A stretch of 19,106 nucleotides of DNA, from contig JAKPQU010000197.1 in the NCBI GenBank assembly GCA_029555925.1, positions 1 through 19,106 of the forward strand, written 5' to 3'. The position numbers and the translations under genes are program-made. Under the pieces are notes generated by a model. The model was given only the letters and a program-made list of their open reading frames with translations, did not search any database and was not told where the DNA came from. The DNA comes from Bacillota bacterium. Lineage in GTDB: Bacteria > Eremiobacterota > SpSt-956 > JAKJGF01. Below, piece by piece: positions 3,049 through 16,443 of the stretch. Within the stretch, counting starts at the first letter, position 1; every line of letters begins with the position of its first letter.

Positions 3049-3083
3049 CGTGACGTGTGACGCGTAACGCGTGACACGTCACG
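3049..3083. repeat. Heptamer repeat array forming an imperfect palindrome
   Basis: Five 7-bp units: CGTGACG, TGTGACG, CGTAACG, CGTGACA, CGTCACG. Together they make a 35-bp near-palindrome whose symmetric pairs fail to match only at one position on each side plus the centre. It lies between the convergent ends of the cytochrome gene (+) and a small membrane-protein gene (-), where a bidirectional terminator would be expected. Confidence 0.75.
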
Positions 3084-5124: not shown

Positions 5125-5154
5125 CGTGACGCGTGACGCGTGACGCGTGACGCG
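5125..5154. repeat. Four perfect tandem CGTGACG heptamers
   Basis: CGTGACG is repeated four times without interruption (5125-5152), followed by CG. The array lies in the 67-bp gap between two co-directional minus-strand genes, inside an apparent operon, so it is not simply a terminator. It is the most regular member of the window-wide repeat family. Confidence 0.85.
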
Positions 5155-5175: not shown

Positions 5176-5463
5176 TTACTGTATCTGGCTATAAGAAATG
5201 ACTTCAGGAGGTGCTCTTATGGAGTTAAAACCGGTGGATAGAAAATAATAAAAATACGTGAGCCTGAAAATTACCGATAAAAGAACGGTAAAGAAGAAAT
5301 ATACAGAGAAAATAAAGACATTAAGACTGGAGAAATACTGTTCCCATTGGCAAAAAATACAGCCATGACCGTCATCTGTATCATAATGAATATGAAAAGG
5401 GATATGAAAAGGAATTACGAGAAATAATATTAATACTGTAAAGGCAATTATTTTCTTCTGCAT
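5176..5463 (-). CDS. Small His/Cys membrane protein (paralogue of the 6043-6315 product)
   Basis: 95-residue protein with an N-terminal membrane segment or signal (about 5-18) and a candidate metal-binding loop H20-x3-H24-x-H26...H33-x-C35-x2-C38-QWE. FSSL and a second membrane segment (about 48-68) follow, and the C-terminal RAPP begins at R83. The product encoded at 6043-6315 has H20, H24, H26, C35, C38, QWE, FSSL and RAPP at identical residue numbers although the rest differs, so these positions are under selection. The general plan recalls small DUF2946-like proteins found near metal genes, but I cannot assign it firmly. It is first gene of the YcgR/YcgQ operon. The likely role is metal binding or delivery at the membrane (inference). 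The ribosome binding site is weak (GGGA). Confidence 0.7.
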   Translation of the reverse strand: MQKKIIAFTVLILFLVIPFHIPFHIHYDTDDGHGCIFCQWEQYFSSLNVFIFSVYFFFTVLLSVIFRLTYFYYFLSTGFNSIRAPPEVISYSQIQ

Positions 5464-5568: not shown

Positions 5569-5596
5569 TTGACAAATATTTTTCAACTGTTATAAT
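5569..5596 (+). promoter_or_regulatory. Consensus sigma-70 promoter of the second fur gene
   Basis: TTGACA at 5569-5574 and TATAAT at 5591-5596 are both perfect, with a 16-bp spacer. The predicted transcript start is near 5603, only ~7 bp before the operator at 5610. This places a Fur-type box across the start of transcription and implies that the first ATG (5609) is too close to the RNA end to be the normal start. Confidence 0.8.
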
Positions 5597-5609
5597 TAAG
5601 AAAAAATAA

Positions 5610-5624
5610 TGAGACCAGGTATCA
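5610..5624. promoter_or_regulatory. 7-1-7 Fur-family operator, copy 1
   Basis: TGAGACC-A-GGTATCA is palindromic apart from one symmetric pair. It is identical to the copy at 6880-6894 and a co-varied relative of the copy at 6399-6413. The position just after the promoter suggests autoregulation of the fur-like gene. Confidence 0.8.
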
Positions 5625-5629
5625 AAATT

Positions 5630-6049
5630 ATGTTAACACCGGAAAATAAATACGATACTTATTTAAAATCCAAAAATCAGAGATTTACCACAGCAAGAAA
5701 AATAATATTTGATTATCTTTTCAGCGTTCACAGTCATCTGAAACTTGATGATATTCGTAAAGAAGCTGAGAAAAACAATATATCAAGAGCTACTTTATTC
5801 AGAATACTCAATCAGATGATAGATGCAGAACTGATCCAGAAATTTTTTGATGATAAGGGTCAGGTCTATTATGAACATATTTACGAACATACTCCGCACC
5901 ACCATTTAATCTGTATAAAATGTAACAAAATTACCGAATTTGAAGATCCTGATTTACATAAATTTCTGGAAGATATCTGTAAGAAAAATAATTTTATCCA
6001 TCAGAACCATATAGTAGAAGTAATGGGGGTGTGTGAGAGAAGATGCTGA
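5630..6049 (+). CDS. Fur-family metalloregulator (Fur or Zur type)
   Basis: 139-residue metal-dependent repressor. The winged helix contains RFTTARKIIFDYLF and NISRATLFRILNQM. The dimer/metal domain contains YYEHIYEHTPHHHLICIKCNKITEFEDPDL, with E82, H83, H90-H92 and E103 as candidate ligands and C95-x2-C98 for structural zinc. The last pair is C135-x3-C139 (CERRC) at the very C-terminus instead of the usual CxxC, which is odd. The reading frame is open from an ATG at 5609, but those 7 codons are the operator itself, so I choose the ATG at 5630. The Glu-containing metal site is more like Fur/Zur than PerR. It shares an operon with the next small gene (7-bp overlap) and probably binds the three TGAGACY boxes. 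Fe versus Zn sensing is undecided. Confidence 0.85.
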   Translation: MLTPENKYDTYLKSKNQRFTTARKIIFDYLFSVHSHLKLDDIRKEAEKNNISRATLFRILNQMIDAELIQKFFDDKGQVYYEHIYEHTPHHHLICIKCNKITEFEDPDLHKFLEDICKKNNFIHQNHIVEVMGVCERRC

Positions 6050-6315
6050 AAATAAAAATTACTCTTCTCCTTTTATTATTACTGATTATCATTCCATCAC
6101 ATGCACCTTTTCATGAACATGGAGGATTTATAGACGAAAACAACTGCCCTTTTTGTCAGTGGGAAAATGCCTTTTCTTCCCTGGCTATATTCATATTTAC
6201 AATTTTCTTCTCACATAAAATTTTGAAAATTTTAAATATTACTTTTACTGTTAATAAACTGTCTCCAGAAAAAATACTCTCATCCACAAGAGCCCCCCCT
6301 CTGTCCTTTATATAA
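6043..6315 (+). CDS. Small His/Cys membrane protein (paralogue of the 5176-5463 product)
   Basis: 90 residues whose start overlaps the end of the fur-like gene by 7 bp, so translation is coupled. Hydrophobic N-terminus (about 6-17), loop H20-x3-H24-x-H26-x8-C35-x2-C38-QWE, FSSL, second hydrophobic segment (about 48-67), and RAPP starting at R83. All key residues coincide with those of its divergent-strand paralogue. Co-transcription with a Fur-family regulator under a Fur-type operator supports a role in metal handling, for example a periplasmic-face metal ligand or chaperone (inference). No enzymatic motif is visible. Confidence 0.75.
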   Translation: MLKIKITLLLLLLLIIIPSHAPFHEHGGFIDENNCPFCQWENAFSSLAIFIFTIFFSHKILKILNITFTVNKLSPEKILSSTRAPPLSFI

Positions 6316-6398
6316 ACCACAATTAATTATCTTTACAGTTAGAAAAAATTATTTATAACTTATCTATAAATAGAATAATATTTTTTTTAATATATTAT

Positions 6399-6413
6399 TG
6401 AGACTCAGTATCA
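6399..6413. promoter_or_regulatory. 7-1-7 Fur-family operator, copy 2
   Basis: TGAGACT-C-AGTATCA. Relative to copies 1 and 3, the innermost pair changed from C...G to T...A on both arms, so symmetry is preserved. That compensatory change is good evidence for a dimer-binding site. It lies 23 bp upstream of the DUF2023 start codon. Confidence 0.78.
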
Positions 6414-6436
6414 AAATAAAGAAAGGTGAAATTATA

Positions 6437-6871
6437 ATGTCAACAATAAGTAAGATTTATTCCTATGAAGAAATTTCCAATAATCTAATATCTTTTATAT
6501 CAGGAGGATTTGTGCCGGATAGAGCCAGAAGTTATGAAAAAATTCATTCCGATATAACAATATTTCTTCATCACATATATGAATATGAAAAAGGCCTGAG
6601 AAATCTGGTGCTTTATACAAGCAAGGTAAGCTATAAAGATTTCATAGAAAAAAAACTGTCAGATAAACATATAGATTATCTCATCCATCACGTAACAGAT
6701 AGTAAAATCAATGTTTTTTTCGGTAATTCCCTCTGTATTGACGTTCTTAAAAATTTCGGCAATAAAGGGCTCAAAGAATTCACTCATGAAGAAGATTTTA
6801 TACTGGGCATAATGCTTGGATACGGAAGACTGAAGCAATGTGAACGATATATAAAGAGGAAAAAAATTTAA
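6437..6871 (+). CDS. DUF2023 family protein
   Basis: 144-residue protein recognised by HHIYEYEKGLRNLVLYTSK, NVFFGNSLCIDVL and EEDFILGIMLGYGRLKQCERY, which together match my memory of DUF2023. The family has no settled function. About 35 residues precede the conserved block (SYEEISNNLISFISGGF...), longer than the minimal ~110-residue members. The frame is open from a TTG at 6398, but that segment is operator and leader. AAAGGTGA 7 bp before ATG 6437 decides the start. It has its own TGAGACY operator and therefore belongs to the same regulon as the fur-like gene and the opine dehydrogenase. A role in response to metal limitation is inferred from that alone. Confidence 0.72.
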   Translation: MSTISKIYSYEEISNNLISFISGGFVPDRARSYEKIHSDITIFLHHIYEYEKGLRNLVLYTSKVSYKDFIEKKLSDKHIDYLIHHVTDSKINVFFGNSLCIDVLKNFGNKGLKEFTHEEDFILGIMLGYGRLKQCERYIKRKKI

Positions 6872-6879
6872 AAATTGAT

Positions 6880-6894
6880 TGAGACCAGGTATCA
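6880..6894. promoter_or_regulatory. 7-1-7 Fur-family operator, copy 3
   Basis: TGAGACC-A-GGTATCA, identical to copy 1 and flanked by TTGAT and AAT. A possible -35 (TTGATT, 6875-6880) and weak -10 (TATTTC, 6897-6902) would place the box in the promoter spacer. The opine dehydrogenase ATG is 70 bp downstream. Confidence 0.8.
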
Positions 6895-6964
6895 AATATT
6901 TCAGTCTGAGACAGAGTCATATATTCCATAAAGCATTACGATTTTAATATAAAGGAGAATTCTT

Positions 6965-8032
6965 ATGAAAAGTACAGGTGTTATAGGTTCAAGCAATTCA
7001 GCCTGGTCTGTGTCATGTTATCTTTCCAGCCTCGGCTATGATGTTTATATGCTTGTAAGACATTTCGACATGGTAAAAACCATAGCAGAAAAGAAGGAAA
7101 TTAAAGCTTATGATAAGCTGAACGGCACATTTAAAATAAAAGACATTACTGATAATACAGAAGAGTTTATGAAACAGGTAAATACAATCTTTATATGTAC
7201 TGTTACCACTGCCTATATGGATGTAATGAAAAGAATAAGTCCCTATTTTAGGCAGGGTCATGAAATAATACTTTTTTCAAGCAAGCTGGGAGGCGTTCTT
7301 GAGGTTACAAATTTTCTCAGAGAAAAAAATATAACAGGTGTAAAAGTCATAGAAACGGATGCAATTTTTGCATCCCGAATAGTTGACCCTGAAACTGTAT
7401 GGATAAGAGGTTATAAAAAATGGAATCTTTATTCATCGGAAAATGCATCGGAAACTGAAAAAAACAGTTCTATAATAAAGAAATTTTTCCCCGCTCTGGA
7501 ACAGGCAGAAAATTTTATTCAGAGAGGACTTACAGATTTCGGAGCCATGGCCCACCCTCTTATCATGCTTGCCAATATGAATAAAGTAGACAGAAAAGAA
7601 AGTTTTCTTTTCTATTACGAAGGTTTTACCGAAAATACAATATCACTGCTGGAAGAAATGGAAAAAGAAAGAAATGCCATAGGACAGGCCTATAATACCA
7701 GTTTTATAAGTTTAAAGGAATTACTGGATAAATACTACTGCTGTATGAGAGACAATCTTTATGACACACTGGTTCATGTGCCGAATTACAGTAAAAGTAT
7801 TTCCCCCGATACATTGAACCACAGATTTGTAATGGAAGATATATGCTGCAGTCTTGTTCCTGCATGGTATCTGGCAAGAACGGCAGATATAAAAACACCT
7901 TTAATAGATTCTGTAATAAATATTTTTTCAGTAATTTTAAAGAGAAATTTTTTACAGGAAGGAAGAACTATGGAGAAACTCGGACTTTCAGGAAAAAATA
8001 AAGATGACATACTTAAGTTTATATACACTTAA
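6965..8032 (+). CDS. Octopine/opine dehydrogenase family enzyme
   Basis: NAD(P)H-dependent enzyme of the octopine/nopaline dehydrogenase family (PF02317). Known members reductively condense an amino group with a 2-oxo acid, and in staphylopine- and pseudopaline-type pathways this is the last step. The N-terminal Rossmann domain (about 1-175) begins GVIGSSNSAWSVSCYLSSLG, and the usual GxGNxG is changed to GSSNSA. The catalytic domain shows GAMAHPLIML (H197), YYEGFT, LEEMEKERNAIG, NHRFVMEDI (H286), SLVPAWYLAR, TPLIDSVI and EGRTMEKLGL, the order expected for the family. 355 residues is the classical size, shorter than staphylopine dehydrogenase (about 430). AAGGAG lies 7 bp before ATG. It is preceded by operator copy 3 and followed by an EamA exporter. 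The substrate is unknown, and no nicotianamine synthase-like gene is present. Confidence 0.87.
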   Translation: MKSTGVIGSSNSAWSVSCYLSSLGYDVYMLVRHFDMVKTIAEKKEIKAYDKLNGTFKIKDITDNTEEFMKQVNTIFICTVTTAYMDVMKRISPYFRQGHEIILFSSKLGGVLEVTNFLREKNITGVKVIETDAIFASRIVDPETVWIRGYKKWNLYSSENASETEKNSSIIKKFFPALEQAENFIQRGLTDFGAMAHPLIMLANMNKVDRKESFLFYYEGFTENTISLLEEMEKERNAIGQAYNTSFISLKELLDKYYCCMRDNLYDTLVHVPNYSKSISPDTLNHRFVMEDICCSLVPAWYLARTADIKTPLIDSVINIFSVILKRNFLQEGRTMEKLGLSGKNKDDILKFIYT

Positions 8033-8059
8033 ATATGTTAAGAAATCACAGGTAATCCT

Positions 8060-8089
8060 CGCGTCACGCGTCACGCGTTACGCGTCACG
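8060..8089. repeat. Heptamer repeat array between dehydrogenase and exporter genes
   Basis: CG followed by CGTCACG, CGTCACG, CGTTACG and CGTCACG (the opposite orientation of CGTRACG). It sits in the 105-bp gap between two co-directional genes of the presumed pathway. Confidence 0.8.
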
Positions 8090-8137
8090 AATCACTAAAA
8101 ACTATTAAATCAAATTAATCAGGGAGTTAACAGTGAT

Positions 8138-9025
8138 ATGAATGTAGAAAAAAAATTCAATTATGTAGCATCCATGTGGATAATCTTATCCCTTCTTTCA
8201 GCGTCAATAGAACCTGTAATAGTAAAATTTGTTTACCAGGGTAACATTACTCCCTATCAATTGCTGTTTATCAAAACCTTAATGGCTGCGCTGGTAATAT
8301 ATCCCCTTACAAGAACCTTCAGGTGGATTGGATGGAAAGGGATGCTCAAAATAGGAAGTGTAAGTATTCTGTTATTGCTGAATAATCTCTCTTACCTTAT
8401 GGCACTGAAACATATATCTGCCATAATATATATAACATTTGTCACAACAAATCCGGCAATAATAGCCATAATCAATTCGGCACTGGGAAGAGACAGACTG
8501 GACATAAAATTCTGGACAGGTTTTCTCCTGTGTTTTTTCGGAGTGCTTCTTACACTGGATCAGGGCGGTATAAACCAGTGGAACATAACTGGCATATTTT
8601 TCGTATTCTGTGCCATGATATGCACGATAATATACAGAACCAGAATGGAAGATATTACGTCGGAATTCAAGCCTGCCCTGGTTTCCACATATATATTCTG
8701 GATTAACGGCCTTCTTGTGCTGTTATCTTTTACGCCTGCAGCATTACCCATGCCCGCTGAAGCCTGGAAACCGGGCATATGGATCGGTCTTGCAGGTGCA
8801 ATGGCAAATGTAGCATTTCTCTATGCCCTTCATATACTCGGTTCTACAAGGGTATCCATATTTAATATGTTACAGAGACCGTTGATTATCATATTTGCTG
8901 CCATAATCTTAAAAGAACATCTCTCTCCGGCACAGATTGGAGGAATTATTATGGTTATGGCAGGTATTCATCTTACTAAAGTACAGAGAATAAAAAAATC
9001 TGTGCCTGCAAAAGGGACGGTTTAG
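8138..9025 (+). CDS. EamA/DMT-family transporter, probable small-molecule exporter
   Basis: 295-residue inner-membrane protein with ten predicted helices and two EamA repeats (about 13-140 and 149-285). Family features include SASIEPVIVKFVYQG in helix 1, YPLTR, NPAIIAIINSALGRDRL with FFGVLLTLDQGG at the end of the first repeat, and MLQRPLIIIFAAIILKEHLSPAQIGGIIMVMAG at the end of the second. DMT proteins generally export metabolites. In pseudopaline-type opine metallophore operons an EamA protein next to the dehydrogenase exports the product across the inner membrane. The same dehydrogenase-EamA order here suggests the same job (inference). A short leader (GGAG) gives ATG at 8138. It has no obvious promoter of its own, so it probably relies on the operator-3 promoter. 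Confidence 0.88.
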   Translation: MNVEKKFNYVASMWIILSLLSASIEPVIVKFVYQGNITPYQLLFIKTLMAALVIYPLTRTFRWIGWKGMLKIGSVSILLLLNNLSYLMALKHISAIIYITFVTTNPAIIAIINSALGRDRLDIKFWTGFLLCFFGVLLTLDQGGINQWNITGIFFVFCAMICTIIYRTRMEDITSEFKPALVSTYIFWINGLLVLLSFTPAALPMPAEAWKPGIWIGLAGAMANVAFLYALHILGSTRVSIFNMLQRPLIIIFAAIILKEHLSPAQIGGIIMVMAGIHLTKVQRIKKSVPAKGTV

Positions 9026-9035
9026 TAAGGAGAAT

Positions 9036-9063
9036 CGTAACGCGTAACGCGTGACGCGTGACG
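9036..9063. repeat. Heptamer repeat array between exporter and ligase-like genes
   Basis: CGTAACG, CGTAACG, CGTGACG, CGTGACG in perfect register, 10 bp after the exporter stop codon. Single-base R (A/G) changes come in pairs, as though units were duplicated two at a time. Confidence 0.82.
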
Positions 9064-9209
9064 GGAGGAGCTGACCGTTTAAACCTGTATTAAATTATTT
9101 AGATAAGTTGATTTTACATAATTTTCATCTAAAGCCTTATTTTACGGCATTAAAAATGAAAATTCCTGTACCTTTAAAATACAAAATAAGAAAAGGAGAA
9201 TAAAAAATT

Positions 9210-10685
9210 ATGACTGAAGAATTTAATTCTGCTATGGAATATGTAGAGGGATTTGGATATCCGGAACATGAAGAAGACAGGCATGGCAAAAGAACTGCAT
9301 GGCTGCTTAAAGAAACGGGGTTACAGGAAAAACTCCGTCATATACCTTATGTCATTACGGCAGGAAGCTGTGGTAAAGCATCAGCTTCAAGATTCCTTGC
9401 CTTTATCGTCAGTGAATTCTTTTCTTTAACAGGAGTAAACAAACCTGTAGGAGTCGGAACAAAACCGCCTTTATTCGAAGATAATAACGGCAACAGGGAA
9501 AGATATCAATTGTTGACGGCCGGAGAAAATAAAAGTAACTGGATCTCTGTAGAAGATTTTCTTTTATCAGTTGGAACACTGGAACCTTTTATCGAATACT
9601 GTCTGTCCCTTTACGGAACTATGGCTTCTTATGATGTAAGATATGCTGTTCTAGCAGATTATTTTACACGGCACGACACAGGCTTTGCAATTTTCGAGGC
9701 AAATATAGGTTTAAGAGACGATCCTTCATCTTCCCTGCTATCTCCGTGTGCAATTATGTTAAATACCGTCGGAGGTGACCACCTTAAACAGCTAAAACCT
9801 CCTGACGATTTACCTCTGTGGCTGGAAGATACGGGACATGTTGCAGGCCCTGTATGGCATAAAGCAGGAGGGCTTAAAGAACACATACCTGCCATAATAG
9901 GGAAACAGGAAGATCATATAATGAATGCTATAATACACATGGCAGAACTTAAAAAAGCCGGCCATATCTGTATATATGGCAGAGACTTTTTTGTTAAACA
10001 TTCCAGATGTACCATACTGGGAAGTAAAGCGGAAATAATTCTGGACAGTCATACTATGGACATAGAACTTTCAGTAGCGGGAGCCTTTCATTTAGACAAT
10101 GCAGTCCTTTCTGCTTATACAGCCTATCTTTTATGGAAAAGACATATCCTGAAAGGTACTTTTTCACAGATTACGGAAGCTATAAAGAAAGGCCTTAAAA
10201 AAGCTACATGTCCGGGACGTATGGAAGTTATAAGGGAAAGGCCTGTAACATTGATTTCTGCCGGCGCAAGCAGTCTGAAATTCGGAGGTCTTATGCATTC
10301 CATAGGGGAACTCATGAAGAATTCAGGGAAAGAGAATATCATTCTCTGTGCCACATTTATAACAAGAGTAGAAGAACCTCTGAATACACTAAAAGCTCTT
10401 ATAAATTTACATAATATAAAAATGTTCCTTCCTGCTTTATGTTACGAAAAAGAACACAGTAAAGATCAGGCAAACCCTCTCAGAATGATAGAACTCTGCG
10501 AACATATAAAACCTGATATATTCTGCAAATATGCGGGAGGTCCTCTGGAAACCTATGATTATGCATTAAAAATTGCCGATCCGGACAGAGATATTATCCT
10601 TCTTGCAGGTACTGCCATGGCAGGGACTATATTAAAACACTCGTCCGGTGAGACAGCAGTGGAACATGTTCTGGCATGTTTATAA
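9210..10685 (+). CDS. Divergent FolC/Mur-ligase-like protein
   Basis: 491 residues that follow the folylpolyglutamate synthase (FolC) layout with altered motifs. The ATP P-loop position reads AGSCGKASASRFLA (51-64) where FolC has GTNGKGS. YDVRYAVLADYF...FAIFEANIGLRDD (about 141-171) replaces FolC EVGLGGRLDATN. LNTVGGDH (185-191) replaces TNIGLDH. WHKAGGLKEHIPAI (216-229) retains the Lys that is carbamylated in Mur ligases (K218). GAFHLDNA (291-298) and CPGRMEVI (334-341) are well kept, but the C-terminal DGAHN motif is replaced by SAGASS (350-355). FolC and Mur ligases join an amino acid to a carboxylate with ATP. A peptide-ligase-like step on the opine product or precursor is my inference, and loss of activity cannot be excluded. 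Start ATG follows AAAGGAG. Confidence 0.72.
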   Translation: MTEEFNSAMEYVEGFGYPEHEEDRHGKRTAWLLKETGLQEKLRHIPYVITAGSCGKASASRFLAFIVSEFFSLTGVNKPVGVGTKPPLFEDNNGNRERYQLLTAGENKSNWISVEDFLLSVGTLEPFIEYCLSLYGTMASYDVRYAVLADYFTRHDTGFAIFEANIGLRDDPSSSLLSPCAIMLNTVGGDHLKQLKPPDDLPLWLEDTGHVAGPVWHKAGGLKEHIPAIIGKQEDHIMNAIIHMAELKKAGHICIYGRDFFVKHSRCTILGSKAEIILDSHTMDIELSVAGAFHLDNAVLSAYTAYLLWKRHILKGTFSQITEAIKKGLKKATCPGRMEVIRERPVTLISAGASSLKFGGLMHSIGELMKNSGKENIILCATFITRVEEPLNTLKALINLHNIKMFLPALCYEKEHSKDQANPLRMIELCEHIKPDIFCKYAGGPLETYDYALKIADPDRDIILLAGTAMAGTILKHSSGETAVEHVLACL

Positions 10686-10731: not shown

Positions 10732-10760
10732 TTGACAAAATAGTTAAGCACCTATATCAT
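10732..10760 (+). promoter_or_regulatory. Promoter and half-operator of the MarR gene
   Basis: TTGACA (10732-10737), 17-bp spacer and TATCAT (10755-10760) would start transcription at or next to the ATG at 10767, giving a nearly leaderless mRNA. The spacer contains TAGTTAAG (10741-10748), the same half-site that forms the perfect operator at 11260-11278, followed by a degraded second half. Autoregulation is likely. Confidence 0.6.
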
Positions 10761-10766
10761 GTATAT

Positions 10767-11243
10767 ATGGATACTAAAAAAGAACTCATTACAAATACAG
10801 TAAGTCACCTGTTAAGGTTTGCACGAAAATTTACTTTTATGGAGACTATGCCCATAAAAATAGATAAAGACAGGGAAATTACAACAAATGAAGCACATAT
10901 CATTCAGGCAATCGGCGAGAATGAAGAAATCAATATTACCAGTCTATCAAAACTATTCGGTGTTACAAAAAGCGCAACATCACAGATGATTTCAAAACTG
11001 TCAAAAAACGGATATGTAAAAAAACAGCAGGCTCCATACAGTAACAAAGAATATTTACTTTCACTTACAGAACCGGGATGGCAGGCATACCACGCCCATA
11101 AACAATTCCACGGCAGAGAAATGGACGAATTGATAAATCGTCTGAGTTCATTTTCATCATCCCAGATTGCAACTATATCAGTCATGTTAGAAACAATAAA
11201 TGATATTATAGATGAAAGAATATCCGGAGTTCCGGAAAAGTAA
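10767..11243 (+). CDS. MarR-family transcriptional regulator
   Basis: 158-residue winged-helix dimer. The order of elements fits MarR: helical dimer region (NTVSHLLRFARKF), DNA-binding helices (about 45-80: ITSLSKLFGVTKSATSQMISKLSKNGYV), the wing (KKQQAPYSNKEYLLSLTEPG) and a C-terminal dimerisation helix. MarR proteins usually repress nearby genes and release DNA on binding a small ligand. Its target is very probably the following methyltransferase promoter, which carries a perfect inverted repeat, and its own promoter, which carries half of it. There is no Shine-Dalgarno sequence, consistent with leaderless translation. M25 is an alternative start but would cut the dimer helix. The ligand is unknown. 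Confidence 0.9.
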   Translation: MDTKKELITNTVSHLLRFARKFTFMETMPIKIDKDREITTNEAHIIQAIGENEEINITSLSKLFGVTKSATSQMISKLSKNGYVKKQQAPYSNKEYLLSLTEPGWQAYHAHKQFHGREMDELINRLSSFSSSQIATISVMLETINDIIDERISGVPEK

Positions 11244-11259
11244 TATTTTTTTTCAAAAA

Positions 11260-11278
11260 TAGTTAAGATACTTAACTA
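11260..11278. promoter_or_regulatory. MarR-type operator at the methyltransferase promoter
   Basis: TAGTTAAG-ATA-CTTAACTA is a perfect 8-3-8 inverted repeat. It overlaps the first bases of a TATAAT -10 element (11277-11282), so binding would exclude RNA polymerase. The -35 region is weak (TTTCAAAA around 11251-11258). Confidence 0.75.
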
Positions 11279-11302
11279 TAATCTAAAAAAAGGAGTAAAT
11301 GA

Positions 11303-12319
11303 ATGGTTACAAAAACAACTATGGAAAAACCGGTCAATGATTTCGATTTTATAGAATCTATATTTATCGGAGCTATTGATGCATGTGCACTGAAAGAATC
11401 AATCAATCTCAAACTCTTTGATCATCTTTTAACCCCCAGGACTGCTGCGGAAGCAGCAGAGATAACGGGAACAGATGAAGGTGCCATAAAAGCACTGCTT
11501 TCATTGCTTGAAGGCCGTAAACTGGTTACTATAATAGATAACAGGTATATGGTAACACCTGCTTCTGCTGAATTCCTTGTTTCAACATCTCCCTTTTATC
11601 AGGGAAATTCTCTGCTCTGGCAGAGAAAGAACTGCGAACATATTATATCCAATATGTCTGAACTGCTCAAAAAACCCGGCATGCATGCAGGATGTATAAG
11701 CAAAAAATTTTCTGATGGGATGAAAGGAATTATAGAGCATGCCATGAGGGGTTTTCTGCAGGATACTGTGGAATTCATAGAAAAGCTTCCGGGATTTAAT
11801 GATGCACGGTGGCTGTGTGATATAGGAGGAAATCATGGGAAGTATACCGCGGCTCTTCTGGACTGCAACTCAAATTTACATGGAGTAATTGCTGATTTAC
11901 CTGACGTTGCGGCAGAGATAAAACATATATATACAGAATCAGCATATAGAGACAGATTATCTGTCATTCCATGTAACCTGTTAACAGATTATCTGCCGGA
12001 AAAAACATATGATATTGTCCTCACTTCTTATGTACTTCAAATATTCGGTGATAAACTGGAACAGGTTATAAGAAAAATTGCTGCAACTATAGTTCCCGGC
12101 GGTTGGTTTGTGACGCAGAATATGACCGATTACGGAACAGACAGTTTATATATGAATGCAATAAATCTTATGACAGAACTGACCGTAAAAGCCAATCACT
12201 TCATACCGGAAACATTATTGATACGTCTTTTAGAGGAGGCAGGCTTCTGTGACATACTCACAGGAAGAACAGGTATGAACAAATCAGATCTCATTATTGC
12301 AGGGAGGAAGAAATGCTAA
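11303..12319 (+). CDS. SAM-dependent O-methyltransferase-type enzyme
   Basis: 338 residues with the two-domain plan of plant-type/CalO6-like O-methyltransferases. An N-terminal winged-helix dimerisation domain (about 14-100) contains LKLFDHLLTPRTAAEAAEITG and LLSLLEGRKLV. A C-terminal Rossmann-fold methyltransferase domain (about 160-335) follows. SAM motif I is LCDIGGNHGKY (171-181), the acidic ribose-binding position is IADLP (D198), and PGGWF (265-269) follows the fourth strand. These enzymes methylate hydroxyl groups of small molecules, and some homologues act on other atoms. AAGGAG precedes ATG by 7 bp. Its promoter is covered by a perfect MarR operator, so expression is probably induced by the MarR ligand. 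Nothing ties it directly to the opine dehydrogenase pathway besides proximity. Confidence 0.82.
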   Translation: MVTKTTMEKPVNDFDFIESIFIGAIDACALKESINLKLFDHLLTPRTAAEAAEITGTDEGAIKALLSLLEGRKLVTIIDNRYMVTPASAEFLVSTSPFYQGNSLLWQRKNCEHIISNMSELLKKPGMHAGCISKKFSDGMKGIIEHAMRGFLQDTVEFIEKLPGFNDARWLCDIGGNHGKYTAALLDCNSNLHGVIADLPDVAAEIKHIYTESAYRDRLSVIPCNLLTDYLPEKTYDIVLTSYVLQIFGDKLEQVIRKIAATIVPGGWFVTQNMTDYGTDSLYMNAINLMTELTVKANHFIPETLLIRLLEEAGFCDILTGRTGMNKSDLIIAGRKKC

Positions 12320-12495: not shown

Positions 12496-15400
12496 TCAAC
12501 TGCATCCGCTCGTATTACCGCAGGTCACACACTTCAAACACGTGCCGTTTCGAACCATAGTAAGACTTCCGCAGGACTCGCACACATCTCCCGTATAGCC
12601 ATGAACCCTTGCTATTATAACAGCATCTATTTTTTTTATCTTTCCTTCTTTTTTGTCTACTCTGTTAACAACCGCATCAGGCTTTGAAAGTTCAGTTCCT
12701 CTGAGATGATTCGTATCGTCAATATGGGCAAGATCATATCTGTCAAGATATGTTATGGCAAGTTCTCTGAAAATATAATCAATAACAGAGGTAGTCATTT
12801 TTATATAATTATTACCTGAAACAATACCATTCGGTTCGAATCGTGTAAAAACAAAAGCGTCTACAAATTCTTCAAGAGGCACTCCATGCTGGAGGCCCAG
12901 GGAAATAGCTATGGCGAAACAGTTCATAAGACTTCTGAATGCAGCTCCTTCTCTATGCATATCTATAAAAATCTCTCCCACCTGTCCGTTTTCATATTCT
13001 CCTGTCCTCAGGTAAACAGTATGTCCTGCCACTTTGGCCTTCTGCGTATATCCGCATCTTCTATCAGGCAGTCTTTTTCTCTCTGCAATATATCTTGTTA
13101 TATCTTCAATATTCTTATCTTTTACCGGACTGTCAGAAAGAGAGTTGCCAAAAAATTCCGCACCGGGAACACTGCTTAAAGGCTGGCTTAATTTTGAACC
13201 GTCCCTGTATAGCGCTACTGCTTTGAGAGCAAGGTGCCATGATTTCATATAAGCATTTTTTATATCGTCTACAGTAGATTCATAAGGCATATTAATGGTT
13301 TTTGATATGGCTCCCGATATAAAAGGCTGAACTGAAGCCATCATAAATATATGGCCATCTACGGAAATAAATCTTTTGCCATTTTTACCGCACTTACTGG
13401 CTGTATCAAATACTGCATAATGATCTTCTGAAAGATGAGGAGCTCCTTCTATCATCATGGTACCACATATATATTCATCTGATAATCTTATTTCATCCTC
13501 GGAAAAACCAAGAAAAGAAAGGAGAGAAAATCCAGGCGAATTTATCATCTCTTCCGAAACTCCGAAGCTTTTACAGAAATCTATTCCAACAGCAAAAGGA
13601 TTAAATAGAAAAGAAAATTCAAAAGCATAAGGGAGATTTTTATTAATCTCTTCAATAATTTCTTCCGGAAATCCAGCTTTAATGAGTTTATCAGCATTTA
13701 TCCATGGACAATCGTAAAGATTACCGGTTCCCTTTACATATCTTACAATATCTGAAATCTCTTTTTCACTATATCCGAGTTTTTTCAATGCAGGAGGCAC
13801 AGACTGGTTGATAATTTTAAAATATCCTCCCCCTGCAAGTTTTTTAAATTTTACGAGAGCAAAATCGGGTTCTATGCCGGTAGTATCGCAATCCATTACA
13901 AGACCTATTGTACCTGTAGGAGCAAGAACAGTTACCTGGGCATTACGATATCCGTATTCTTCTCCCATAGCAAGGGCTCTGTCACCATCCTCTCTGGCGG
14001 CCATAAGCAGTTCGGAAGGACAGTATTTTTCATCTATGCCTGCAGGCTTCATTGTAAGTCCTTCATATTCACCATGAGGTGCGTTATAAATAGCTCTTCT
14101 GTGATTTCTTATCACCCTGAGCATAGCTTCTCTGTTCCTTTCATATCCACTGAAAGGCATCAATTCCTTTGCCATTTCCGCTGAAGCTGAAAAGGCAGAC
14201 ATATGCAAAATAGCGGAAAGAGCGGCGGCTACTGCCCTTGCTTCAGGAGAATCATAGGGATGCCCCATAACCATAACAAGAGAACCGAGATTGGCAAATC
14301 CAAGGCCCAGACTTCTGAAATCAAAGGAGAGTTTTGCAATCTTATCAGACGGGTATTGTGCCATAAGGACACTTATATCCAGTACAACAGTCCATAATCT
14401 TACGGCATGTCTGTAGGCTTCAACATCAAACCGTTCATTGAGAAAATCATAAAACCTGATTAAATTGAGAGATGCGAGATTACAGGCTGTATCATCAAAA
14501 AACATATATTCGGAACAGGGGTTTGACGCTCTTATCTCACCGTCGCCGGGACAGGTATGCCATTCATTTATTGTACTGTGAAATTGAAGTCCCGGGTCGG
14601 CACAGGCCCATGCGGCACGGGAAATATTATCCCACAGTTCAGCGGCCTTTAAAACTTTCACCGGCTCCGGCTTTCTTCCCTCTTTTGAAGCTTTCTCTTT
14701 TTCTGTCCTCTCTATAAGGTACCAGTCTTCATCTCTTAAAACCCTTTCCATAAAATCTCCTGTAACCCTTACGGAGTTATTGGAATTCTGGCCTGAAACA
14801 GTATAATAGGCTTCGGAATCCCAGTCTGTATTATATACAGGAAAATCTATAATTTTATGGCCTTTTTTTGCAAGTGATACAGTCTTTAAAATATAGTTAT
14901 CAGGCACAGATAACTCTCTAGCTTTGTTTATAGCTTCCCTGAGAGATATATTTTCTCTCCAGTCAAAAGGATCTTTAGATGCAGATTGTTCAACGAACAG
15001 AGGGGTGTAACAGGAAGCAAGTATCTCTTCAAGAGCTTTTTTTATTATAACAGAACCTGTTACGAGAGAGGCTACCTTCTGTTCTTCTATAACCTTCCAG
15101 TTAATAAAATCTTCTATTTCAGGATGATCTGCATCAAGGATAAGCATTTTGGCCGCTCTTCTGGTGCTCCCTCCGCTTTTAATGGCACCTGCAGCCCTGT
15201 CTCCTATACGCAGGAAACTCATAAGTCCTGAAGAATAGCCTCCACCGCTCAACCTTTCTCCTTTTGCCCTTATATTGGAAAAATTCGTTCCCGAACCTGA
15301 GCCATATTTAAAAATTCTTGCCTCTCTTACAAGGAGATCCATTATACCGCCTTCTGCTACAAGTTCATCTGTTACCGACTGTATAAAACATGCATGAGGC

Positions 15401-15963
15401 TGAGGGTGGCTGTAGGCATCTTCCGAAGGTTTAATTTCACCTGTGTCAGGGTCTGCATAATAATGTCCCTGTGGAGGGCCGTTTATACCGTAAGCCCAGT
15501 TAAGACCTGTATTAAACCACTGGGGAGAATTGGGAGCACCTGCCTGAGCGGCAAGCATATAAATAATTTCATCATAAAAAGTTTTTACATCTTCTTCACT
15601 ATCAAAATATTTATGTTTCCATCCCCAGTAAGCCCATGTGCCTGCCATTCTGTGGAAAACCTGTCTCGCATCATATTCGCCGGTAAATCCGTCATTATCT
15701 TCGGAAGGAACCGAAGACTGGAGCCATAAAGGGACATCCTTTTCATCCAGTTTTTTCAATTTCAACGGAATACCTGCCCTACGAAAATATTTCTGAGCTA
15801 TAATATCAGTGGCAAGCTGTGACCACTGGGCGGGGACAAAGATATTATCCATATTAAAAATAACAGTGCCGTCAGGCTCTTTCAACACAGAAGAACGGAT
15901 TTCAAAATCTATTTTTTCAAGGGGATCTCTATTTTTTTTAGTAAAAAATCTCTTTATTTTCAT
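12496..15963 (-). CDS. nrdJ: Vitamin B12-dependent (class II) ribonucleoside-diphosphate reductase
   Basis: Adenosylcobalamin-dependent enzyme that makes deoxyribonucleotides without oxygen. About 1155 residues, the long class II form. Motifs include [10 protein letters not shown] and [34 protein letters not shown] with the active-site cysteine of CNLASLNL at about residue 494, [22 protein letters not shown] (about 679-700), [12 protein letters not shown], and the family's C-terminal zinc-finger tail CESCG...[16 protein letters not shown] (1128-1155), which carries redox or metal-binding cysteines. The frame extends to an ATG at 16002, but GGAGGT 7 bp before the ATG at 15963 fixes the start. 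TATAAT at 16012-16017 could be its own -10. A cobalamin riboswitch lies further upstream on the same strand. Confidence 0.96.
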
Positions 15964-16011
15964 AAAAATACCTCCGAATTTTTTAAATAAATAATAATGC
16001 ATAAAGACGGG

Positions 16012-16017
16012 ATTATA
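16012..16017 (-). promoter_or_regulatory. Possible -10 element for nrdJ
   Basis: Minus-strand TATAAT, with a poor -35 (ATTACT at 16035-16040, 17-bp spacer). It lies downstream of the repeat block, so nrdJ may be transcribed independently of the riboswitch. Confidence 0.4.
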
Positions 16018-16040
16018 GTGTATTTCATAATTTAAGTAAT

Positions 16041-16111
16041 CGTGACGCGTAACGCGTGACGCGTGACGGATTTAATCCCTGCGCATCACGCATCACGCAT
16101 TACGCATTACG
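16041..16111. repeat. Two opposed heptamer arrays able to form a long hairpin
   Basis: Array one (16041-16068) is CGTGACG, CGTAACG, CGTGACG, CGTGACG. Array two (16084-16111) is CATCACG, CATCACG, CATTACG, CATTACG, i.e. reversed CGTRATG units. The two 28-nt arms can pair with mostly Watson-Crick or G-U pairs. The 15-nt loop contains its own small palindrome (GGATTTAATCC). It lies between the 28-codon ORF and nrdJ and could separate riboswitch transcription from nrdJ. Confidence 0.8.
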
Positions 16112-16154
16112 ACGTTATTATGAAACTAACTATATAAAAAAACAGAAAATAACC

Positions 16155-16241
16155 TTAACCGAAATGAAAATTTTTTCTTTGTTCAGGAGGTATAAATAGG
16201 CAGGCACTATTGCAATAATTTGCGGAAAATAAAAATGACAT
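16155..16241 (-). CDS. 28-codon ORF directly downstream of the cobalamin riboswitch
   Basis: ATG at 16241 is preceded by a strong Shine-Dalgarno sequence GGAGGGAAG (16244-16252), which starts 14 nt after the riboswitch aptamer. The predicted peptide begins MSFLFSANYCNSACLF and ends NFHFG before TAA at 16155-16157. It resembles nothing I recognise. The strong RBS in exactly the place a riboswitch-controlled gene would start argues that translation begins here. It could be a real small protein or leader peptide, or the stump of a lost or frameshifted cobalamin-related gene. The region 16223-16253 can fold (CGGAGG with the complementary UUUUCCG) so as to hide the RBS, which fits translational control. 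Confidence 0.4.
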   Translation of the reverse strand: MSFLFSANYCNSACLFIPPEQRKNFHFG

Positions 16242-16261
16242 ATCTTCCCTCCGAAAACACT

Positions 16262-16420
16262 CTTTATCAGGTAAGTCTCCTGGTTTAGCTTCATCCTACT
16301 TCCTCGTCTTCCCTGTCCGGTGACATATGAGGTTTCGTCTGCATCACAGTAGCGGCGGCTACGACGGATTTACACCGTACTTCCTTTATTAAGCCCGTAA
16401 AGGCACCTGATTGTGTCATG
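16262..16420 (-). ncRNA. Cobalamin (B12) riboswitch
   Basis: Read on the minus strand, the element has the conserved cobalamin-aptamer order: GGTGCC, TTAATAAAGGAAG, CGGTGTAAATCCG, the core GCCGCCGCTACTGTGATG, then CAGGGAAGACG, GGATGAAGCTAAACCAGG and GAGACTTACCTG. The closing P1 stem is ATCAGGT (minus strand, 16411-16405) pairing with ACCTGAT (16272-16266). A promoter lies 24 bp upstream of P1. Such aptamers usually switch genes off when adenosylcobalamin binds. The first thing downstream is a 28-codon ORF with a strong RBS, then repeats, then nrdJ. An OFF switch ahead of a B12-dependent enzyme would be contrary to expectation. Confidence 0.92.
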
Positions 16421-16443
16421 TAATTTTATAAAATGCAAAAGCT

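Follow-up and report, generated by a model that had tools for sequence, protein, structure and literature searches.

A recurring opine dehydrogenase, EamA exporter and FolC-fold ligase cassette behind a Fur-type operator: a candidate pathway for an acidic opine with a possible metallophore role

The window analysed here is a stretch of 19,106 nucleotides (positions 1 to 19,106 of contig JAKPQU010000197.1, assembly GCA_029555925.1, deposited as a Bacillota bacterium). It carries, one behind the other, the genes of an opine dehydrogenase (ODH), an EamA-family exporter and an ATP-dependent ligase of the FolC fold, and the search of other genomes demonstrated that these three genes form a recurring cassette. 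A DUF2023 gene and the gene of a Fur-family regulator (Fur2) lie upstream, and a putative operator is found in three copies, which stand ahead of Fur2, DUF2023 and the dehydrogenase, respectively. The Pfam scan covered 18 window proteins. The features on which the argument is built are the following.

5569..5596, + strand: sigma-70-type promoter match, TTGACA-16-TATAAT with TG before the second hexamer, 12/12 positions; just upstream of operator copy 1
5609..5625, + strand: putative operator copy 1, ATGAGACCAGGTATCAA; 12 nt past the -10 hexamer, overlapping the first possible Fur2 start codon
5609..6049, + strand: Fur-family regulator Fur2 (PF01475, 79.3 bits); start read from the sequence
6043..6315, + strand: 90-aa membrane-type protein with HxH and CPFCQWE motifs recognised by eye, no Pfam match; overlaps the Fur2 gene
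6398..6414, + strand: putative operator copy 2, TTGAGACTCAGTATCAA; precedes DUF2023
6437..6871, + strand: DUF2023 protein (PF09633, 136 bits); the open reading frame (ORF) opens at 6398
6879..6895, + strand: putative operator copy 3, TTGAGACCAGGTATCAA; 69 nt upstream of the dehydrogenase
6965..8032, + strand: opine dehydrogenase resembling N-(1-D-carboxyethyl)-L-norvaline dehydrogenase (CENDH) (Octopine_DH, PF02317, 112.7 bits, cut-off 30); catalytic pair H197/D292, and K107 with G193 as predicted acidic-substrate signature
8138..9025, + strand: EamA-family exporter (PF00892, 86.9 bits)
9210..10685, + strand: FolC-fold ATP-dependent ligase of a separate small subfamily (TIGR01499, 43.5 bits, cut-off 162.65); no Pfam match

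For DUF2023 the ATG at 6437, which stands behind AAAGGTGA, is likelier to be the start than the opening of the ORF at 6398. In the case of Fur2, an alternative in-frame ATG at 5630 would leave operator copy 1 untranslated. A first-pass annotation of this DNA had described an opine dehydrogenase followed by EamA under a Fur-family operator, together with a FolC/Mur-like ligase and an upstream DUF2023 gene, and both descriptions were confirmed.

The dehydrogenase has the features of PF02317, namely the match to the helical domain and the His-Asp catalytic pair. Using the family profile, the closest solved chain was 1bg6, that of CENDH, also called ArODH (221 bits, full length), while the staphylopine and octopine dehydrogenase chains reached just 41-44 bits. 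We take H202 and D297 to be the catalytic pair of 1bg6; they map to H197 and D292 of the window enzyme and are invariant in 38/38 alignment rows. The dehydrogenase alignments contained 37 of 100 hits plus the window (A2) and 39 plus the window (A1). The PF10100 cut-off was barely passed (25.8 vs 25, across 91 residues). The staphylopine/pseudopaline type, to whose operons the first-pass annotation had likened the gene pair, had to be given up: NF033600 gave 32.3 bits where its cut-off is 675, no synthase accompanies the gene and the profile fits best to 1bg6. By its sequence the enzyme is CENDH-like and not staphylopine-type.

The amino acid used by such enzymes has been altered by mutagenesis, and the sections of PMC10787698 concerned with substrate choice state that hot-spring enzymes (mODHs) in which ArODH positions 111 and 198 are occupied by Arg and Gly favour acidic amino acids. 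The double exchange A111R+N198G shifted ArODH from Phe to Asp and the reverse exchange shifted a hot-spring enzyme from Asp to Phe, although the exchanged enzymes were slow (PMC10787698, same sections). These positions correspond to Lys107 and Gly193 in the window enzyme, and the Lys/Gly pair was present in 38/38 alignment rows and in 58/58 locus rows, with or without EamA. None of six distant homologues had either residue: at 198 Asn was found in 6/6, and at 111 T, N, T, H, N or S stood in place of Lys or Arg, with gaps beside this position in 3/6. Since the invariant Lys/Gly pair sits where the published Arg/Gly mutant switches Phe to Asp, we predict with moderate confidence that the substrates are an acidic amino acid (Asp or Glu) and a 2-oxo acid. 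The predicted acidic-substrate signature would be common to the hot-spring enzymes and the present family, with Arg/Gly in the former and Lys/Gly in the latter. The window enzyme differs from CENDH and the mODHs in its family-wide Lys107 and its exporter and ligase neighbours; the sections of PMC10787698 on substrate choice treat enzymes and not a pathway.

Where the cofactor loop of ArODH has the acids D34 and D36, the window enzyme has V31 and H33, and because of this replacement the cofactor is probably NADPH. This bears on the possibility of a fermentative enzyme of the octopine/strombine kind regenerating NAD+ at low oxygen, for which the membership in PF02317 and the conserved catalytic pair would speak. 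The predicted preference for NADPH, the exporter and ligase neighbours and the Fur-type operator argue against it, and we regard this explanation as very improbable.

A profile search gathered 62 dehydrogenase loci. EamA was encoded on the same strand in 33 of them, directly downstream in 32 (2-149 nt between the aligned ends) and just upstream instead in the remaining one (locus L005). These ODH-EamA loci belong to Obscuribacterales/Melainabacteria, Myxococcota and other metagenome-assembled genomes (MAGs), and the two-gene form occurs in Obscuribacterales/Melainabacteria, in Vulcanimicrobiota-type bacteria (a label coined in this analysis) and in others. The protein nearest to the window dehydrogenase (97%) came from a Candidatus Eremiobacterota MAG. 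Using one protein as the query, the dehydrogenase was detected in 11 of the 149 genomes of the likely phylum of the window (9 full, 1 contig-edge fragment in genome G151 and 1 distant in G023), and in 3 of 377 Myxococcota genomes (2 strong, 1 at 25% identity). The Myxococcota set was a draw from a larger group and omitted L031, a Myxococcota-titled locus having ODH-EamA without the ligase. In one order the dehydrogenase reached at least 300 bits in 25/53 genomes, and some match was seen in 44/53. The ribonucleotide reductase of the window found a best match of 60% in the 149 genomes, which makes a close relative among them unlikely.

The ligase was counted with a profile. Its subfamily was present in 7/526 whole genomes of the two phyla, and each of the seven also matched the window-type dehydrogenase. 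Five of the 149 likely-phylum genomes had it (355-545 bits, the next match being 154 bits), the dehydrogenase being of full length in four of these and a contig-edge fragment in one. The two ligase-bearing Myxococcota (689 and 521 bits, next 135 bits) were also the only 2 of the 377 with a strong dehydrogenase match; this overlap cannot count as a fair or independent test, since it was the dehydrogenase that first led to both genomes and the draw was centred on one of them. For the 149 genomes the chance of such an overlap was 4e-7 to 3e-5, depending on how the fragment is counted and uncorrected for kinship. None of 24 further dehydrogenase genomes had the ligase (best 137.5 bits). The subfamily is sharply bounded: a search of 5.8 billion proteins, with the best 7996 candidates scored, returned 32 ligase clusters that reached at least 427 bits, followed by a single cluster at 129 bits.

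In six of the seven ligase genomes the gene stands directly behind EamA. In the case of G151 the contig holds just the last 47 residues of an apparent EamA, recognised by eye, ahead of the ligase, and G154 carries the ligase on a different short contig. Among the loci the ligase follows EamA in five (L003, L016, L019, L025 and L033), L003 being of Myxococcaceae. Thus the co-occurrence of the trio elsewhere, on which the earlier proposal had been made to depend, was indeed found.

The ligase was seen only together with the dehydrogenase, and the dehydrogenase often without the ligase. On a tree of 58 of the 62 loci plus the window (L059-L062 were left out since the dehydrogenase was not called or was shorter than 250 aa), 28 ODH-EamA rows lacked the ligase and 6 had it. 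Since the ligase-free form is the commoner one, the ligase looks like an add-on to ODH-EamA rather than the maker of the backbone, and the earlier suggestion of a backbone built by ATP-dependent ligation was not supported. The label of the ligase falls at three separate places of the tree, with at least three changes, which would mean repeated gain, or an early gain with losses; the branch of the window is long and its placement unsure.

Over its full length the ligase has the FolC/Mur-ligase fold. Other rows of the fold search, plastid RNA polymerase subunits and cyanophycin synthetase, were taken to belong to one and the same superfamily as FolC and the Mur ligases. In the alignment A3 (23 of 35 hits, the window and four locus proteins) the P-loop residues, E163, H191 and K218 were invariant in 28/28, and K218 may be carbamylated. 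The window ligase shares the fold, the P-loop and the catalytic Lys with FolC (folylpolyglutamate/dihydrofolate synthase), and departs from it in the TIGR01499 score and in the DGAHN motif, which is lost throughout the subfamily; K357 and R386 are invariant instead, KPPL is invariant and ERYQ nearly so.

The whole-length FolC fold could also mean that the gene is simply the folate enzyme of the genome, or an unrelated ligase merely adjoining ODH-EamA, and no canonical FolC passed the TIGR01499 cut-off in the five ligase-bearing genomes of the likely phylum. This gap is not tied to the ligase, because ligase-free genomes of the same phylum (G002, G003, G004 and G155) show it too, and both ligase-bearing Myxococcota possess a separate canonical FolC (320 and 311 bits). 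Together with the altered motifs and the position next to EamA in 6/7 genomes, this makes the folate explanation improbable. As for folate itself, nine of ten searched genomes of the likely phylum (G002, G003, G004, G006, G007, G008, G151, G154 and G155) had no canonical FolC over this cut-off and G145 had one (286 bits); in the other nine the folate enzyme is divergent or missing.

The best described systems with comparable genes are the opine-like zincophore clusters of staphylopine, pseudopaline, yersinopine and bacillopaline. In the survey sections that define them (PMC7438024) CntM is the marker of these clusters, preceded by nicotianamine synthase and with transporters no more than six ORFs away, and they were found in four phyla (Firmicutes, Proteobacteria, Actinobacteria and Fusobacteria). 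According to the same sections the opine dehydrogenase stands beside an EamA-type exporter in clusters 3 to 10, with two exceptions, as it does in the window, and the pseudopaline-type cluster likewise has no inner-membrane importer. In contrast to the window, all but one of the clusters described there have nicotianamine synthase directly upstream of cntM. When the window was compared with this layout, an exporter (EamA, MFS or MatE) within six ORFs was present, the EamA of 8138-9025, whereas a CntM-type dehydrogenase, an upstream nicotianamine synthase and an importer within six ORFs were absent; the gene directly upstream of the dehydrogenase is DUF2023, not nicotianamine synthase. Relative to the clusters of these survey sections, the window has a dehydrogenase of a different branch and an additional ATP-dependent ligase, and its cassette occurs in lineages partly outside the four phyla.

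The Pfam scan of 18 window proteins matched neither a nicotianamine synthase nor a racemase, a TonB receptor or an ABC importer, in agreement with the absence of synthase and racemase noted earlier. If the synthase gene were located elsewhere in the genome, the system could still be a zincophore pathway of the nicotianamine type, and 4/36 ODH genomes had a synthase over the cut-off, all on other contigs. However, 32/36 had none, including all seven ligase genomes (0/7 in the genome-wide search), and in one order the synthase occurred in 4/25 genomes with a strong dehydrogenase match vs 2/28 others. As a hidden partner the synthase was rejected, being found in 4/36 genomes and unlinked, and a distant synthase is the least probable of the explanations weighed. 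The synthases of that order (L144-L147) belong to genomes G547, G546, G541 and G542. A second, distant dehydrogenase (131-154 bits), possibly the partner of the synthase, was observed in G547, G541 and G542 as well as in G578; in G544 and G543 such an enzyme is present without nicotianamine synthase.

Another known molecule bears comparison in its chemistry. The ethylenediamine-disuccinate (EDDS) zincophore of Amycolatopsis is presumably an aspartate-derived aminopolycarboxylate metallophore produced without a nonribosomal peptide synthetase (NRPS), by other enzymes, and the product predicted here would likewise be aspartate-derived and NRPS-independent. The gene set works like an opine export pathway and is not a member of the nicotianamine type. 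Thus, of the opine-type pathway without nicotianamine synthase proposed for this DNA, the recurring cassette and the absence of the synthase from the ligase genomes were retained, while the dehydrogenase proved to be of another branch and no importer recurs.

The argument for metal regulation comes from the operator. The motif TTGAGACnnnGTATCAA is present at 5609-5625 with 1 mismatch and at 6398-6414 and 6879-6895 with 0 mismatches, and copies 1, 2 and 3 are partial palindromes (12, 14 and 14 of 17 positions). The pattern TGAGACNNNGTATCAAA gave 3 exact matches; allowing up to 2 mismatches, 200 shuffles had a mean of 0.20 and 1/200 reached 3, a circular test since the pattern was derived from the sites themselves. 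In a test that is less circular, 5/100 shuffles contained an exact 17-mer direct repeat, and 0/100 contained one together with a third copy at 3 mismatches or fewer. No further copy with 0-1 mismatch was found in the rest of the window. The promoter scan gave 16 sites overall, fewer than the shuffle mean of 25.1, therefore only the strong 12/12 match (5569-5596) was counted. Operator copy 1, just behind this match, has the geometry expected of a repressor site, and no clear promoter was found ahead of copy 3. A Fur-type palindrome at a promoter, common to a Fur-family gene, is therefore present and binding of the regulator to it is predicted; the gene set looks regulated by metal starvation in the genome of the window.

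Fur and Zur chains were tied as the best solved chains for Fur2. The parts of PMC10434189 that deal with iron describe strong induction of DUF2023 genes by iron starvation in Bacteroidetes: 598-fold in B. thetaiotaomicron, 159-164-fold together with a flavodoxin in P. intermedia, and, again with a flavodoxin, within a five-gene group induced 1.8-133.6-fold in P. gingivalis. This induction suggests iron as the metal. The equal likeness of Fur2 to Fur and Zur keeps zinc in play, and so does the nearby pair of an ArsP-type permease and a DUF1980 protein, which we assume to be zinc- or metal-linked.

Taken together, these data lead us to propose that 6965-10685 is a biosynthesis and export operon for a modified acidic opine, controlled by metal starvation, the product of which is a metallophore. 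We give this reading a probability of about 0.48. Based on the sequence and the published mutants, the dehydrogenase, probably using NADPH, would reductively couple the amino group of Asp or Glu to a 2-oxo acid. The resulting N-carboxyalkyl amino acid would have three or more carboxylates and be an aminopolycarboxylate. As its fold and motifs suggest, the ligase would then activate a carboxylate with ATP and link an amino acid through an amide bond, adding more donor groups, and EamA, to judge from its family, would export the product. At metal scarcity, most likely of iron, the Fur-family repressor would free the operon, DUF2023 and its own gene; the operator is seen, and the metal is predicted. 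The exported product would act as a metallophore, for which we see roughly even chances. This role draws on the regulation in one genome and on predicted chemistry, because no importer, Fur gene or operator recurs elsewhere.

Several observations weigh against the proposal. The published substrate switch was obtained with Arg at position 111, where the present dehydrogenases have Lys. The identity of the metal, iron or zinc, is a guess. EamA and the ligase have no operator copy of their own and would be under its control only if read from the dehydrogenase promoter, and co-transcription of the three genes is not sure, because spacers of 105 nt (dehydrogenase-EamA) and 184 nt (EamA-ligase), both with heptamer repeats, part them. 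No Fur-type gene was matched in any of the 62 dehydrogenase loci (tblastn, E 1e-5), and the exact operator was found in 0/138 loci, many of these being ordinary FolC loci. In 2 of 33 upstream regions (L031, 13/19; L033, 12/19) a Fur-consensus site was rarer than 2/100 shuffles, and these scores can be explained by chance, given 33 tests with two patterns; a common operator ahead of the dehydrogenase elsewhere was rejected, since nothing convincing appeared in the 33 regions. DUF2023 was found in 0/149 genomes of the likely phylum, thus its link to the trio is local. Near the pair there is no recurring TonB receptor, no recurring ABC importer and no other recurring metal gene, contrary to what a travelling importer would have given. 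This was judged on 78 of 80 listed neighbour proteins from 25 of the 33 ODH-EamA loci (8 near-duplicates or contig ends excluded), where the top neighbour family reached no more than 4/78 proteins and singly seen families are mostly unlisted. Finally, 25 of the 59 tree rows (19 Actinobacteria, 3 of the Calescibacterium type, L013, L026 and L058) have the dehydrogenase without EamA and keep the same Lys/Gly pair as the ODH-EamA rows.

An exported Asp- or Glu-derived opine with another role (nitrogen store, signal, osmolyte or overflow), its Fur-type control being a local rewiring, is accordingly a real possibility, and we rank it next after the metallophore. The predominance of ligase-free ODH-EamA rows, the lack of a recurring metal gene and of the exact operator elsewhere, and the frequency of the dehydrogenase in one order (25/53 genomes) would all fit it. 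It accounts less well for an operator common to a Fur-family gene and DUF2023 or for a ligase step at three places of the tree, which would be costly for mere waste. Moreover, aminopolycarboxylates chelate metals by their chemistry.

The metallophore proposal can be widened to a class of opine metallophores free of nicotianamine synthase, in which a Lys/Gly dehydrogenase converts central metabolites in a single step into an aminopolycarboxylate resembling iminodisuccinate or N-carboxyalkyl-glutamate, for export by EamA, with the FolC-fold ligase adding an amide-linked amino acid at three places of the tree. In this general form we consider the idea rather doubtful.

Some further observations concern the surroundings. 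The dehydrogenase branch with the Lys/Gly pair and without EamA occurs in Amycolatopsis, Saccharopolyspora and Saccharothrix (L035, L037-L054). The actinobacterial and Calescibacterium-type loci were set aside as metal loci, since their scanned neighbours (phosphodiesterase, hydrolase, GNAT, SDR, biotin carboxylase and others) gave no hint of a link to metal. The first block of the window (+ strand) encodes rubrerythrin, a PerR-like Fur protein and an ORF resembling cytochrome-peroxidase, the latter called by eye and without Pfam match; the Fur-family gene of this block (1121-1582) adjoins rubrerythrin and is closest to the PerR model, under its cut-off. The next block (- strand) comprises the DUF1980 protein, the ArsP-type permease and a small HxH/CxxC membrane protein, and the following + strand block consists of Fur2, a small related protein, DUF2023, the dehydrogenase, EamA, the FolC-like gene, MarR and a methyltransferase. 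MarR and the methyltransferase (10767-12319) were dropped as operon members, since MarR has an 11/12 promoter match (10732-10760) and a small palindrome ahead of it. Two small paralogue-like membrane proteins (5176-5463, - strand, and 6043-6315, + strand; HxH/CxFCQWE/RAPP motifs by eye, no Pfam match) flank the Fur2 gene at its start and end. A class II (B12-dependent) ribonucleotide reductase (12496-16425, - strand) lies behind a cobalamin riboswitch (76.3 bits). Intergenic heptamer arrays (ACGCGT plus mostly G or A) at 3057-3075, 5125-5154, 8060-8089, 9036-9063 and 16042-16070 resemble dispersed short tandem repeats; two of them lie between the dehydrogenase, EamA and ligase genes.

No paper on the dehydrogenase-EamA-ligase set came up in searches of open-access full texts, in line with the first-pass annotation, which knew of no described pathway with these genes. 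The set lacks the nicotianamine synthase on which the known molecules of this sort rely. A search started from CntM, as in the cluster-defining sections of the four-phylum survey (PMC7438024), would miss the present dehydrogenase branch. Owing to the Lys/Gly pair, a single purified enzyme would be enough for a direct test of the first chemical step. If the proposal is true, two or three genes would suffice for bacteria of little-studied phyla to produce aminopolycarboxylate chelators, and an enzyme of the FolC fold would have been recruited into natural-product assembly.

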